From Peribolospora baueri (lineage: Eukaryota; Basidiomycota; Peribolosporomycetes; Peribolosporales; Peribolosporaceae): a stretch of 64,000 nt of DNA. Positions within the stretch are counted from its first letter, which is position 1, and every line of letters starts with the position of its first letter. The notes beneath the pieces were generated by a model. That model was not told where the DNA came from. It did no database searches and worked only from the letters and a program-made list of their open reading frames with translations. The stretch spans positions 1-64,000 of the forward strand of contig JAMDHS010000058.1 in assembly GCA_029717555.1 (NCBI GenBank). Reading direction: 5' to 3'. The position numbers and the translations under genes were made by a program. This document shows, piece by piece, positions 30,204 to 38,395 of this stretch.

Positions 30204-33200
30204 ATGTACGGTCAGGGCGGGCAGTGGCAGCAGCCCGGTATGGGGCAAGGCTTTCAGGTGGGCGACGGCGCCTCGTCTCCCTTCTTCTCCCTCCCCTCGC
30301 ATTTCCATCAAAACTGACCCGCTCATCCCCCCTTCGTCTCTGATCACAGCAGCCTATGATGCCCCAGGTCACCGGATTCCCTGGGCAACAACAGATGCAG
30401 CCCCAGGTCACCGGGTACCCTGGGCAACAGCAGATGCAGCCCCAGGCCACCGGGTACCCTGGGCAACAGCAGATGCAGCCGCAGGCCACCGGGTACCCTG
30501 GGCAACAGCAGATGCAGCCGCAGGCCACCGGGTACCCGGGACAGCAGCAGATGCAACCCCAGGCCACCGGATACCCGGGACAGCAGCAGATGCAACCCCA
30601 GGCCACCGGATACCCGGGACAGCAACAGATGGCCCAGGGTTACCAGCAGCCGCAACCACAGCAGCAGTTCGGCGGCGCCGGCGCCGGTCTTCTCCAAGCC
30701 AACCTTGCTCAGCAGCGTTTCCTCACCCCGTCTCCCGGCCTTTCACAGCAGCGCACAGGAAGCGCGGGACACATGCCGCAAGCGACGGGCCACCCTGGGT
30801 TTAGCGGCGCTGGTCTCGCACCACAAGCGACCGGCTACCCTGGCGCCGGCTCGCTCATGGCGCAAGCCACGGGGCTCGTGCCGCAAGCCACAGGCTTTCC
30901 GGGATACCGCGACCCTCGACTGGCGCTCATGAGCAGCCAGTTCATGCCCGCTGCCAACCTCCCCTTCGCACCCTCCCCTGGCAACGTCCAGTTTAGCGCC
31001 AGTAGCATGCCGGCGAGTAGGTTCGGAGCGAGCTTCCAGGATGTCACCACTCAGCATGCCCAGCAGCGAGGCGGAGCACCCCCAAAGGTGCCTTGGGTGC
31101 TCAGTAAGGAAGAGAAGAAGAACTACGATCAGATCTTCCGCGCTTGGGACCAGAGAGGCACGGGCTTCATCAGCGGCGATATGGCGAGGGAGGTGTTCGG
31201 ACAGAGCGGACTTGACAGAGATGACCTGATGAAGATTTGGTGAGTGAAGTGAAGAGACGACCCTCTGAGGAGTCTCCTCGTGTACGCACGCCACACACTG
31301 ATTGTCACTACTACCTGTCGCTCGTCGCAGGCACCTTGCCGACGGTGAAAACCGGGGCAAACTTAACCTCGCCGAGTTTCACGTTGCTATGGGCCTCATC
31401 TACCGGCGGCTCAACGGCAATGAAATTCCTGACCAGCTTCCCACGGAGCTTGTCCCACCCTCGGCTCGTGATCTTAACGACTCTGTCGACTTTCTCAAGG
31501 ACCTTCTCAAGAAGGACACCAATGTTCGGCAGACCACCGGCCTCAATATCCCTGAAGTGGGCAGCAACAAGGGTCAGAGCTATGCGAAGGCCCATTCCTT
31601 CCACGACAATCCCGTCGCTCCGTCGCGAAAAGATGCCACGGTTTATCGCCACGACGACAATGAGGTGGGCGGCTACAAGTCCTCTTCTCGCCACCTCGAC
31701 CGCAAGACCGTCCGCTTCGAGGGCCAGTCGGCCATGGATGACCTGAGCGAGATGAAGCGTCAACTCCAGAACACGTCAAAATCCTTCGAAAAGGCCAACG
31801 ACAAGACTGACGAGGACCGCGAGTTGGAGCGCGAAATGGACGATCTTCGCCACCGTATCCGGCGTGTACAGGATGACCTCGCCTACATCGAGAAGCGCGG
31901 AGGGCCCGGTTCGGACGATGAGAGGAGGCGCCTGGAGAGAGAGCACCTCCAGCTCCTCTACGAGCGCTTGCCTCAACTCGAGAAGAGGATGGAAGAGAAG
32001 CAAAGGAGGGATCACGACAGGAGCTTAGACTTGGCCAGGGATCGTGATCGGAGGAACAACAGCTACTCTCGCCACAGGGACGATGACCGCGACAGATATG
32101 ACTCGCGGTATGACGACCGCGGCTACGACCGCCGGGGTGGAAGGGACAGGGACGATGATCGCGGCTATCTCCGTGGAACGTACGGACGCTACGGCGAGGA
32201 TCGGGACCGTGACCGTGACCGTGACCGTGACCGTAGCCATGACCGTGACGACGACCGCGAGCGTGAGCGGGGTCGGTACGACTATGACCGCCGGGATCGT
32301 CCTCGCAGTCCCGTCCGTGGCGAGGGTCGTGGATCCGCGCCGCCGCCTCCACCGCCCCCGAGCGCGCCAGCAACAGCACCTCCACCGCCGCCTCCGGCCC
32401 CGTCAGCGTCGGTGTCTCCCCCTCCCGCCGCCGCTTCTCCCAAGCCCGACCTGTCTAAAATGACACCGGAAGAGAGAAAGACATACATCCGCGCCGAAGC
32501 ACAGCGCAAGATTCTAGAGCGTCAGCGCGCTCTGGGCGTAGCTGCTCCCTCGTCACCTTCCATCGACACTTCCGTTCAGGACCGTCTTGAAGTCGACAGG
32601 GCCGAGGCGGCCGCTCGCTCTGCCCAGGCCGATCGCGAGGCGGCAGAGAGAGAGAAGTTGCGCCAGGCCAGACTGGAGGAGCAGCGCTTGGCCAAAGAGA
32701 AGGCTTCGCTCGGCTCGGTCAAGCACGAGGTCGAGAAAGAGGCTCAGGAGGAGAAGCATCAAGACAGCGACGGTGTTGCGCCTACTGAGCCTACTCCTAC
32801 TATCGTTGCGGAGGCAAAGAAAGACGCTATCGACGAAGAGGAGGAGATGATTCGTCGGCGTGAGGCTGTTCTGGCAAAGGAGAAAGCTGAAAGGCTGGCC
32901 AGGCTTGCCAGACTCGAGCAGGAAGAAGAAGAAAGCCGCAGGCAGGAAGAGGAGTTCAAAAAGCGCAAGGAGATGTTCTCCAACAAAGCCAAGGCCTCTG
33001 CGCCCGCGCCTCCGCCCAGCAGGAAGAGTGGACCTCCGCCCCCGCCTCCACCTAGTAGGAAGGCGGCCCCTACCACTTCGGCCACTCCTCGTCCTCCTGC
33101 CCTAGCGGCTCCCGCGGTGGTATCTCCCCCAGCTGAGCCCGCATCGCCCGCGCCGCCCGCACCGCCCGCACCGGCAACCGCCCCCACCCCGGTGAAGTCC

Positions 33201-36200
33201 CCTCTCACCACGCCGAGCGGCTCGAGCACGAATCCCTTCCACAGACTCGGTGGCGTCGGTGCGGCAGCCTCTCCGGCTGCGTCGACACCTTCGGGAGCGG
33301 ATACGAACCCGTTCTTCAAGATGTCCAACGCCGCCGGATCCTCGCTCCCTCCGCCTGCCCGCCAGTCTCCCTCCGCTTCTGCGCTCCCTGCGCCTCCTGC
33401 TCCTCCTGCTCCTCCCGCTCCTCCCGCGCCTCCCGCGCCTCCCGCTCCTCCCGCTCCTACTCCATCGGCCGCACCCAAGGCACCGACGCCTCTGCCTCAG
33501 AATGCCAAAGACGACGAGTGGGACATCGTCGAGGAACGCTCGGATGACGGAGATTCGAGTGACGATGAGGGTACTAGCACCCGCATGAAGAGGCAAAACC
33601 TGGCACAGCAACTATTCGGTGGCATCATGCCTGCTCGGTCTGGCTCGGCTACCGAGTCTGCTGGCAGTCCAGTCACCCCTGCACCCGCAAGCCCATCTGC
33701 CAGCGCTGGTGTCCCTCCGCCTCCTGCTCCTCCGGCGCCCGGTGCACCTCCTCCACCCCCCGCAGCACCCGCGGCGCCTCTGCAGCTCGGTGGGGGCGAT
33801 CCGTCCGTCCGTGGAGCTTTGTTCGCCCAGATTCAGGGCGGCGCTAAACTCCGTAAGACTTTGACAAATGACCGTTCTGGCGCGCCTGTGTCAGGTAAGG
33901 TCATTGGCAGCGCTGAACCTCCAGTGCAGACCTACGTCCCGTCGCCTCGCGAGCCTTCGCCGCCCCCGCCCCCGCCTTCTGTCCCGGCTGAGCCCGTAGC
34001 TGTCGCTCAGCCTGAAGCAGCAGAATCTTCACCGCCGGCCCCTCCTGCCCCCGAGGCGGCTAGTGGCATGGAGGATCCAACTCCGAATCCTAACGTCAAT
34101 CGACAAAGCGTCGATTGGTACGGCAGCTTGGCCGCCGACGGCATGCACCATCAACCCCCTTCCCAGCCACCTGCAGAAGATTTGCAGGCACTCCAGGAAG
34201 AGACAGAGCCTGCAGAAGAACCTGCGGCCGATGCGACCGAGTCCACCTCGGGTGCTCTGGATGACATTGACCTCGGACGAGGTGGGTAACTCTTGGAGCG
34301 CATTACTGGATCAGGTTACACTTTTCGAAGACGATTCTGTCCGTATGTTGACTATTTCGTTCCAATCGGCTCTGCAGAAATCCGCGTCCGCACCCTTTAT
34401 CCTTACACGGGTCAGCGTGACGAGGACCTGGCGTTTGATGAAAATGTCGTGGTGCTTGCTCATCCTGCGAAGGACCCCGATAGCGATTGGTGGTACGGCA
34501 CCCAAGTCAAGGACGACAAGAAGGGTTACTTCCCCAAAACTTATGTCGTGGCGATGGAAAATGGTGAGTGCCCGCCTGTCTTTATTTGGATGCACATATG
34601 GCTCTGCGATCAGTTCTGAACATGACGACGTCCCTTCCTTTCTTTTCGGTCGCGCATGTATAGCTGTTCAAGCTAAGGCTCTTTACGACTACTCCGGTGC
34701 CTCTGCTGAGGAGGCCACTTTCTCAGCCGACGACATTTTAACAGTGGTCGACCGTGAAGATGCAAACTGGTGGAAGGTCGAGAAGGCTGACGCGATCCTT
34801 ATCGCTCCCGCCACGTACCTGGAGGTCATTGGGGGTTAGTAAAATGGACTCGATTCGGTTCGGCTCTTGCGAGCGATCGCTCGGCGCGATCTGGGTTGCT
34901 GCGATTGTCTCGGGCGACGACACGTCCCTTCACTCGTTTTTTTTTCTCCTCTTCCGTCTGTTTCACTCGCTTCGGGATCGCGTTCCTTTTTTCAGTTCCA
35001 TTCGCGGCGTGATCCATGATTCAGTGCATGCAGGCTTGCTGAGTCTTGTCTGCTCCCCTCCTTTTTTCCACATGTACTTCCTTTGCGAACGAACGGAATT
35101 CAATTTACTTCGGTCAACGGACGCTCACCGATGCTGTCCACCTATCACCTGTCGCCTGCAGATCGGTCGGCCGACCTTCAAGTCCCAGCCATACTGCCTC
35201 CGCCGCCTCAAGCTTCATTGCAAGCGACGGAGGTCCCGACCACAGCTGTTCACCCCACGGACACAGACGTAGACGAAGAGGCGAACGAGGACGATACGAG
35301 TGACGAGAACTCCTTCTTCACCGGTAGCGAGGGCGAAGAGACGTCCGAGACTTCATCAGACGACGAGGAAGAAGGCAATCCGCAAGAGGATAAGGAGAAG
35401 CGCGAGCAAGAACGTCTCCGCGTTCTCGAAGCGGCCGGTCTTTTGGTAAGAGAGGAACCAGGCAAGCAAGCGTCCACGGTCCTGCGCCGCAAATCTACGA
35501 AGTCCAAAGGTCCTCGTCCTCGACGGCCTCGTCCTGAACGCCCGGAGCGCGAAGTCCCCAAGATGCCATCAAGGGCCCGTAAGCCTTCTGCGCGACCCGA
35601 CAAGAAGTTGCCACCCATCCCGACACAAGAGTCCGAACTGAAGACGGAGGATGCCTACGATCGGTACCTCAAGCTCTCCAACGAGATCGCACTGTCCCAA
35701 TCACATTCGTCCAGTTCAATAGGATCAGCCGTCTCTCCACCGTCCATTTCCGTCTCTGGTGAACCGCATTCTCGCTCGGCCACACCCGGCTCTCCCCATT
35801 CATATCGCGACGCGTCGTCGCCCAACTTACACGATGCGGAAAGCTCCAGGCTCTCTGCTTCGTCGCTCCTCTCCACTATTCGATCCGGCGGCCGGAGGAA
35901 ATCCAATGCGAGCCCTGGCGGAGAGCGGAAATTTTCCTCGTCCCTGTCCACTTCGCTCATCAGCAGTCCAGTTGCGTCTGGGTCTGGACCAAGCTTTGCT
36001 CCGACAAGGGCAGAGTCTCCCGCTCTGGGGCACACGGTGAGTTTCTCTCCTCGCCGCTCGATGATCATGCTATGTTTGAATTGTGAGGACGAGACTTCTT
36101 TCCTTGGTTTGTTTAGTCATGGTCTAGTATCGTAGGCAAGGAGGCTGTGGATGCGATCCCTGACAAGGAGCGAAAACGCCAGGAGGTGAGCCGGCCTCTC

Positions 36201-37798
36201 AACAGAACCCTTTGTGGACAAGGGCGCGGCACTGCATATTGACCTCTATGTTGTTCTGTATAGGCTATCTTTGAACTCATCACCACTGAGCAGAGTTTCG
36301 TTCGTGACCTGCAAATCACAGTCGAGGTAGAGACGCTAGTCATCAATACCGCTTAAAGGGGGCCAGCTTGCTGATTATCTTGTATGAACGTCTATCGCAC
36401 CAGGTGTTCTTCTCCTCCATGCAAGACCTGCTTTCGATGAAGGCACTCACCGTCATTTTCGCCAATATTGAAGACGTACTTCTAACTGCCGTATCTTTCC
36501 TGAGCGACCTCGAAGCACGTCAAAAGGACAACAGGCTGTACATCGACATGATTGGCGACATTCTCGTGGAGCATATTCCTCGCATGCGCGTGTACATGCA
36601 GTACTGTGTCAACCAGGAGATTGCGGCAAGAATCCTGCAGGCCGAGAGGACGAAAGACCCAAGACTAGCTTCCCATCTTGATGTGAGGGACATAGGGCCC
36701 GCAATGTCGTTCGCACGATCGTATTGCTTGCTAAAACATGTGGCCATTCTTCAATCCGGAGCAGACGCTACGCGCAACGCACCCTGCAGCGCGTAATTTG
36801 GACCTCTCCAGTTTCTTGTTGATACCTAGTGAGACACGCTCTCGCTCTTATCTGAGCCCGTTCCTAGTCGAAGACGCTGCTCATTGTCTTTGTTGGCAAC
36901 CAGTGCAACGCTTGGCGAGATACCCTCTTTTGATCGGTCAAATTGAAAAGTACACCCTCGAAGACCACCCAGATCACGACTTCCTTCGGCATGCGCACCG
37001 ACGAGCTGAGTCGATTCTCAACGCCACCAACGAGGCCATCCGAGACCGCGAGATGCGCGAGAAACTGGCGGCTATCTCCGAAACCCTTTTCGTCGGGTCC
37101 GCTGGAGTGAGTTTTTTCTCACTTGTGCACGTGGACCGTACATGCTCCTCTTCAAGCAGGATGCTGAGCTCGCGCGCGTACCTTTTGACTTCATCCCGAC
37201 GGCGTGTGTTCCAACAGCGCATTGATTTGACCAAGCCGACGAGATTCATGGGGCCTAGGGAAATCCTCAAAGAGGGCGTGCTAGCTAAGAAGAGCGGGCG
37301 AAAACTTCAGGCCGTCCTATTCAACGATATGTTTTTGCTCATTTCGAATGGCCAGCTTTATCGGGTGGTGAGAGCTAAGTTGCCGATACAGCGCTAAATG
37401 GCATTTCTGCTGACCTTTTTGCTGCTCCACGGAATGCAGCCGTTCCCCCTCAATGAGATTGTTGTTCGGGACATGCCGCCAGGCCTTACAGGTAGAGGTA
37501 AGCACATGAACATGACGGAAAGACTTCTGCAGGAGGGATGAAACTTGGGGATGAAATATTGCATTGGATGACCTGTACCCTTTTTCCCTTGTTATCCGTC
37601 TCTCCTACGTATGTGCCAGACGACCTCGCCTTCCAGATTGTCCATCAGACATCAGGTAGTCTCACCCTACGCGCTTCGAGCCCGAGAGAGTGTCACATGT
37701 GGATGAAGGAGATAGAGGATGCGAAGGAGCGGTGTTTCGATGCTCAGAAGATGGCTAAAAGGCGCTCACAACGGTCGAGCCGGGATAGTGTCTACTGA
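30204..37798 (+). CDS. PAN1: Pan1/intersectin-family endocytic scaffold and RhoGEF
   Basis: Fourteen exons: 30204-30257, 30350-31239, 31331-34281, 34378-34563, 34664-34834, 35162-36036, 36117-36185, 36264-36326, 36404-36682, 36765-36828, 36904-37106, 37218-37367, 37440-37497 and 37620-37798 (6192 nt, 2063 aa, all phases close). Order: N-terminal QATGYPG repeats (aa ~20-115); one EH domain (aa ~268-355, [14 protein letters not shown]...[15 protein letters not shown]); coiled coil (~476-540); Arg/Asp-rich tract; [18 protein letters not shown]; proline-rich blocks; a WH2-like actin-binding segment (~1140-1165, [20 protein letters not shown]); two SH3 domains (~1300-1360 ALYDY-type YPYTG, ~1363-1418 ALYDYSG); a DH RhoGEF domain (~1733-1930, [21 protein letters not shown]); and a PH domain (~1936-2045). 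The N-terminal half is Pan1; the SH3-SH3-DH-PH half matches human intersectin and Cryptococcus Cin1. It should act at cortical actin/endocytic sites and activate a Rho/Cdc42 GTPase. Retention of the intron at 34835 would end the protein after the second SH3. Confidence 0.9.
30356..30625 (+). repeat. Coding 39-bp minisatellite ([13 protein letters not shown])
   Basis: A 36-bp first unit (30356-30391) is followed by six 39-bp units to 30625, near-identical, each encoding a QMQPQ(A/V)TGYPGQQ variant. Degenerate PQATG motifs continue to about 30910. The units carry the M/L-x-x-Q-x-T-G pattern known as the Prk1/Ark kinase target in Pan1. Confidence 0.95.
34835..35161 (+). promoter_or_regulatory. 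Candidate regulated (retained) intron in Pan1/intersectin gene
   Basis: This 327-nt intron joins the second SH3 exon to the DH-PH half. Its donor GTTAGT places an in-frame TAG at 34837-34839, so an unspliced transcript would end cleanly at EVIGG after the SH3 domain (1418 aa). It is longer than the neighbouring introns (about 75-110 nt) and has a weaker donor than the usual GTGAGT. The alternative that two separate genes exist is less likely, because splice phase and domain order fit a single gene. Confidence 0.55.
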
Positions 37799-38395
37799 GA
37801 GAGATGTTCGGCTGGCCTTCGTCTTGTCTCCTAAGGATCACGACCGGTACGAATGTAATGGACTTCTGCTCTTTTCTGACCTTCAATCGTGCCCTCACGT
37901 ATCGCTCTTGAGACAGCTCACTTCTATTGGGCTTCCTGGAAAAGCCTTACACGGCCTACGATCTTGGCGCGACCTCGCGTTGCGACAGCTAGGTCTTAAA
38001 GACTACTACAAGTGAGTGCAAAGTCTCTTCAGCACCTTCCACCATTCGTCATCCACTCCACAGCACTAAAAGGAGACGGACCAAATGTGTCTTGCCTCGA
38101 GAGAGAGCGGCAATGTTGGAAAAGATGCTAGGGTCGACTAGTAAAGGGATCAACAGCCCAATGCAGACAAAGAGTCTCGGCGCTGGTTCAGGTCCAGGCC
38201 GGGCGGCTCCCTGAGGACCGAGCCTTCGCGAAGGCCCTTCACAAACCTCAAGTGGTTCTGTGGTAAGTTGATTTGGCTGCGGCAAATACGGCAACATCTC
38301 CAAGTCGGCCTCTATTCGTCGGCCAGCGGCTCTCGACTTTCCTCACACACAGACGGCGCTTTTCTCGATCTCGAGCTCCATAGCTGTCCCTTGCC
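37799..38395. other. Short intergenic region with a possible small spliced frame
   Basis: About 600 bp between the Pan1/intersectin stop and the YIP1-family start. It includes the weak spliced frame listed separately (37914-38214). Confidence 0.5.
37914..38214 (+). other. Unidentified small spliced reading frame
   Basis: An open frame ends LRQLGLKDYY at a good donor (GTGAGT, 38012). After a 52-nt intron it resumes in phase at 38064 and runs to a TGA at 38212-38214, with a basic, helical-looking stretch (NTKRRRTKCVLPRERAAMLEKML). I do not recognise the family and see no convincing start codon; the frame stays open upstream into the 3' end of the previous gene. It could be a small gene or part of a UTR. 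Confidence 0.25.

Follow-up and report, generated by a model that had tools for sequence, protein, structure and literature searches.

A long intron as a plausible switch point between long and short forms of the Cin1-type intersectin of Peribolospora baueri

Intersectins with long and short forms

Cin1 of Cryptococcus neoformans is described as a protein with one EH domain, a coiled coil, a WH2 motif, two SH3 domains and a DH-PH module (PMC3645719). According to the same account, which draws here on Shen et al. 2010, both a short and a long isoform are encoded; it also mentions that proteins homologous to Cin1 occur in other basidiomycetes. Alternative splicing of the cryptococcal intersectin 1 transcripts is likewise referred to, with citation of Shen et al. 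2010, in a genome-wide splicing study (PMC3925392). Intron retention is reported to be very common in Cryptococcus and mostly independent of nonsense-mediated decay; it is said to tune expression, and its contribution to the proteome is thought to be small (PMC5006051). In human, the short form of intersectin-1 (ITSN1-S) is described as accompanying the inclusion of exon 30 (PMC9519902), and the SH3E domain is reported to inhibit the adjacent DH domain, the linker between the two spanning no more than 74 Angstrom (PMC2892021), corresponding by our own arithmetic to ~21 residues. No published work on the intersectin gene of a basidiomycete besides Cryptococcus was found among the papers listed by literature searches, judged on titles and the opening lines of abstracts.

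The intersectin gene of P. baueri

The window, the whole 64,000-nucleotide stretch analysed here, belongs to a 22.1 Mb genome assembled in 178 contigs. Its forward strand carries a gene extending from 30204 to 37798, whose model was assembled manually using its reading frames and splice sites. The gene comprises 14 exons and 13 introns between the ATG start codon at 30204 and a TGA stop codon at 37796-37798, and encodes 2063 amino acids (aa). Pfam matches define one EH domain (aa 269-363, 31100-31475, split by intron 2; PF12763, E 1.1e-20), DUF1720 repeats, one WH2 motif (33801-33881; PF02205, E 7.6e-9), two SH3 domains, one RhoGEF (DH) domain distributed over several exons (aa 1734-1910, 36267-37031; PF00621, E 9.5e-40) and a PH domain (37269-37777; PF16652 and PF00169). 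The first SH3 domain is encoded by exon 4 (34378-34563) and the second one by exon 5 (34664-34834), which ends just past the domain; PF00018 and PF14604 each give two SH3 stretches. A C2 domain was not found among the Pfam matches at E up to 0.01, using three pieces that cover the protein. The DUF1720 matches fall on a 39-bp tandem repeat (30361-30631; 6.9 copies, 94% matches) translated as protein repeat units, whose copy number may, as a guess, differ between strains. The EH domain is followed by a charged stretch, and the central region is of low complexity, with RD-dipeptide and proline-alanine repeats (32205-32257 and 33384-33458).

The 354-aa DH-PH part was compared to PDB sequences. Its best match is 1ki1, the intersectin long form (E 5.3e-50), 3qbv is also among the best, and the first seven rows are all intersectin chains, ranking above any other exchange factor. 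The SH3 pair is not diagnostic, because intersectin 2 stands next to last in the best 60 of its 159 matches at the cut-off. The domain set and the best PDB match of the DH-PH part thus bear out an assignment to the Pan1/intersectin type that had been made in a sequence-only reading of this DNA. The DUF1720 repeats, the EH domain and the WH2 motif, which are Pan1 features, account for the likeness to yeast Pan1, from which the gene differs by its SH3 and DH-PH domains; the yeast protein is not known to have either. With animal intersectin-1 it shares the arrangement of the long form (ITSN1-L), in which DH-PH is added C-terminal to the SH3 domains. The animal type has two EH and usually five SH3 domains, whereas the fungal gene has one EH, two SH3, a WH2 and no C2. 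With Cin1 the agreement extends to the single N-terminal EH, the WH2, the two SH3 and the C-terminal intersectin-type DH-PH without C2, all in equal order; this comparison leaves the coiled coil aside and was made with the published description of Cin1 rather than by sequence alignment (PMC3645719). From its predicted domains the gene is identified as the intersectin gene of the organism, built like Cryptococcus Cin1, a layout that by itself suggests a basidiomycete. Both forms, long and short, have been reported in the case of Cin1, whereas the short form of the P. baueri gene is a prediction from sequence. The linker between SH3 and DH is ~308 aa long in the fungal protein, as compared to the ~21 residues given by the at most 74 Angstrom described for human (PMC2892021); inhibition of the DH by the SH3 domain therefore cannot be assumed for the fungal protein.

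The part from the SH3 domains to the PH domain (765 of the 2063 aa) is single copy. Elsewhere in the genome it finds only weak matches (33-45% identity), and a second copy or haplotype to compare with was rejected on this ground. A search of the genome for the RhoGEF family gave 17 matches, two of them at the intersectin locus. Relatives of the DH-PH half were also sought in prokaryote genomes and viral contigs and none was confirmed, as expected for a fungal gene. Two details of the DH-coding exons deserve mention for annotation. The donor of intron 8 (36327-36403), within the DH domain, is very poor (GTAGAG, -6.9 bits) and weaker than that of intron 5. Between two short introns, 36683-36764 and 36829-36903, lies a 64-nt exon coding for most of the DH motif SFLLIPMQR, and the interval 36683-36903 is easily mistaken for a single 221-nt intron.

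Intron 5 and the products of its splice choices

Intron 5 (34835-35161, 327 nt, phase 1) lies between the exons coding the SH3 part and those coding the DH-PH part. Its position, its length and its donor GTTAGT (34835-34840) agree with the sequence-only reading, and a hidden Markov model (HMM) of introns picks exactly the same interval. The distal acceptor (35148-35161), which yields the long form, reads CGCCTGCAG followed by ATC, and the reading frame is continuous across the intron in the spliced model. When the intron is retained, the last exon base G and the intron GT form a GGT codon that is followed by TAG and TAA (34837-34842). The TAG at intron bases 3-5 (34837-34839) had been noted before; the TAA directly behind it is an additional observation. 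The retained-intron product has 1418 aa and terminates by ...YLEVIGG, just past the second SH3, as compared to 2063 aa for the spliced one, and both sizes match those given earlier. Also as noted earlier, the intron is far above the local size, being the longest of a gene whose 12 other introns measure 72-122 nt. The donor had been called weaker than the GTGAGT used elsewhere in the gene. GTTAGT is ordinary to weak, at the 28th percentile of 444 predicted donors, and GTGAGT is found in just four of the 12 other introns. Nor is this the lowest-scoring donor of the gene, those at 30258 (GTGGGC) and 36327 (GTAGAG) being weaker still.

A catalogue of introns was assembled to place these features in the context of the genome. 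The two-strand HMM was trained in six rounds on the window and 20 hand-picked 10-kb stretches of the same genome (seven of them from one contig), amounting to 264 kb, and predicts 444 introns. It is not fully independent from the gene model, since its splice models were seeded, with pseudocounts, from the 13 hand-made splice pairs of the gene. Within this gene it finds 12 of the 13 introns modelled by hand, misses intron 8 (36327-36403) and adds 37732-37912. The catalogue is rough: 31 predicted introns are 300 nt long or more and have poor donors, and the long tail probably includes false joins. A length of at least 327 nt is found for 27 of the 444. An in-frame stop starting at base 5 or earlier is present in 102 of the 444 predicted introns (95 within the intron and seven across the exon boundary; 98 in phase 2), and 315 have an in-frame stop somewhere upon retention. 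The corresponding figures for the introns of the intersectin gene are two of 13 for a stop starting within five bases and nine of 13 for a stop inside the intron. Within phase 1 an early stop is unusual, as it occurs in three of 140 predicted introns, intron 5 included. The GTTAGT donor is found in four of the 444, again with intron 5 counted. The stop in the donor, put forward as evidence for a switch, is no commoner than chance gives (102 of 444) and does not stand out from introns in general as a mark of regulated intron retention. By themselves, an early stop and a weaker donor therefore give no indication of a switch, both being common among the predicted introns of the genome.

The choice of the 3′ splice site offers a further route to a short product. 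Among the seven AGs of the intron, the highest score belongs to TTCCTTTTTTCAG, which ends at 34995 (34982-34995; 5.81 bits, 96th percentile of predicted acceptors), as compared to 3.50 bits (72nd percentile) for the distal acceptor. The proximal site is out of frame with exon 6; splicing to it adds VPFAA before a stop, giving 1422 aa. Predicted introns contain 1207 internal AGs, four of which, this one among them, score as high; in the 264-kb sample, counting both strands, 0.12% of the 34,369 AGs score at least 5.8. We give this site modest weight because it was noticed post hoc and because 16 of the 31 predicted introns of at least 300 nt, intron 5 counted and many of the 31 possibly false, contain an internal AG outscoring their own acceptor by at least 2 bits. 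The candidate branch sites favour the distal acceptor over 34995: CTCAC (35124-35128), 34 nt upstream from 35161, is present in 39 of 344 introns and two-fold enriched in the corresponding part of predicted introns, whereas TTCAC (34962-34966), 30 nt upstream from 34995, is of a rarer class (seven of 344). A donor overlapping the first one four bases further on, GTAAAA, is poor (3rd percentile), and its use makes a TAA stop split after its second base. Retention, the 34995 acceptor and the +4 donor all lead to a stop at the same place to within four residues and hence to a nearly identical short protein. Retention is accordingly one route among several, as use of the proximal acceptor would yield a short form too.

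Other ways of processing the intron were inspected and set aside. For a cassette exon, the sole positive internal donor is at 35009 (0.4 bits), whose combination with 34995 and 35161 does not preserve the frame. Regarding further frame-keeping acceptors, five AGs score above 0 in 34860-35200 and only 35161 and 35188 are in frame. The latter is outside the intron, 27 nt past 35161, and its use would drop nine residues of the linker. A structured or catalogued RNA element was rejected, the fold of 34815-35181 not being notable (z -0.12) and Rfam giving no match at gathering score within 34000-36000. None of seven A/T-rich words (AATAAA, ATTAAA, AATGAA, TATAAA, TATATA, TGTAAA, TTGTA) is present in the intron, so that a poly(A) site is not apparent in it. 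In that case a retained message, with its stop upstream of eight more introns, may be degraded.

A plausible switch and its alternatives

The proposal of a long/short switch is based on the gene model built from the sequence, on the domains and on the product of each splice choice. Splicing from 34835 to 35161 would join the scaffold to the DH-PH exchange-factor half in the 2063-aa protein, while retention, the 34995 acceptor or the +4 donor would leave an EH-WH2-SH3-SH3 scaffold without guanine nucleotide exchange factor (GEF). The ratio of long to short form would then be governed by how frequently the spliceosome gets as far as the distal acceptor. The gene type, the position of the intron and the Cin1 precedent sustain this proposal as it was originally made; the stop in the donor and the weaker donor do not, both being common in the genome. 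We judge a working switch plausible, and consider the chances about even that some short form is made through this intron, a short form being reported for Cin1. Speaking for it are the Cin1-like domain set and order, the intersectin-type DH-PH, the single-copy SH3-to-PH part, the exceptional length of the intron within the gene and the high-scoring 34995 acceptor. Against it stand the commonness of early stops, the decoy AGs in 16 of 31 long introns, the poor +4 donor, the rarer TTCAC branch candidate, the seven absent poly(A)-like words and the unremarkable fold. The intron is well supported and the gene identity clear from the sequence; the sequence evidence for a switch in the P. baueri gene is weak. 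That the intron is spliced as modelled, that the short form reaches a useful level and that the choice is regulated are all three points that we infer, and we give low odds to anything past the Cin1 precedent. The idea of long and short forms is itself not new, as Cin1 was already reported with both isoforms (PMC3645719). The parallel to animal intersectin drawn in the sequence-only reading holds for the outcome and fails for the mechanism, since human ITSN1-S is described as arising with exon 30 inclusion and not by intron retention (PMC9519902).

The intron could instead be an ordinary constitutive one, its stop a by-product of phase 1 combined with a T at the third donor base, in which case unspliced messages would be rare noise or degraded and the species would have no short protein. 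This is a serious possibility, which we place a little under even. It accords with the frequencies of early stops, of stops anywhere and of GTTAGT donors in the catalogue, with the lack of a notable fold, Rfam match or poly(A)-like word, and with the description of retention in Cryptococcus as tuning expression and adding little to the proteome (PMC5006051). It fits less well with the report that Cin1, a gene of equal layout, makes both forms (PMC3645719), with a length unusual for the gene and with the high-scoring decoy acceptor inside. Two overlapping transcription units are improbable. The upstream one, coding the short scaffold, would end in the intron. The second would start from a promoter lying in the CT-rich part of the intron and give a DH-PH-only protein alongside or in place of the fusion. 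The segment 34920-34995 is indeed 78% C+T, resembling the 76% of the 100 bases ahead of the gene's own ATG, and the intron holds an ATG (35131-35133) in frame with exon 6, from which a DH-PH protein of 656 aa would be read if transcription started within the intron. Yet acceptors look pyrimidine-rich too, the interval from 34995 to 35131 contains three ATGs that are out of frame, the frame is maintained across the intron, and the long Cin1 form of Cryptococcus is described as carrying both halves in one protein (PMC3645719). Highly improbable is a combination in which the intron would act as a three-way node: 35161 giving the scaffold-GEF protein, 34995 or retention the scaffold without GEF, and an intron promoter a free GEF from ATG 35131.

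If the intron is constitutive, it is just another ordinary intron, in a gene that is itself well defined. The three-way node, if true, would mean that 3′ splice-site choice sets the coupling of endocytosis to Cdc42 activation in a fungus. Should the long/short switch operate, so that both forms are made as in Cryptococcus, the choice between long and short intersectin might go far back among the basidiomycetes and involve a splicing route unlike the human one. It would then be relevant to a question posed in the description of Cin1, at what stages the exchange-factor half was there and was lost (PMC3645719).
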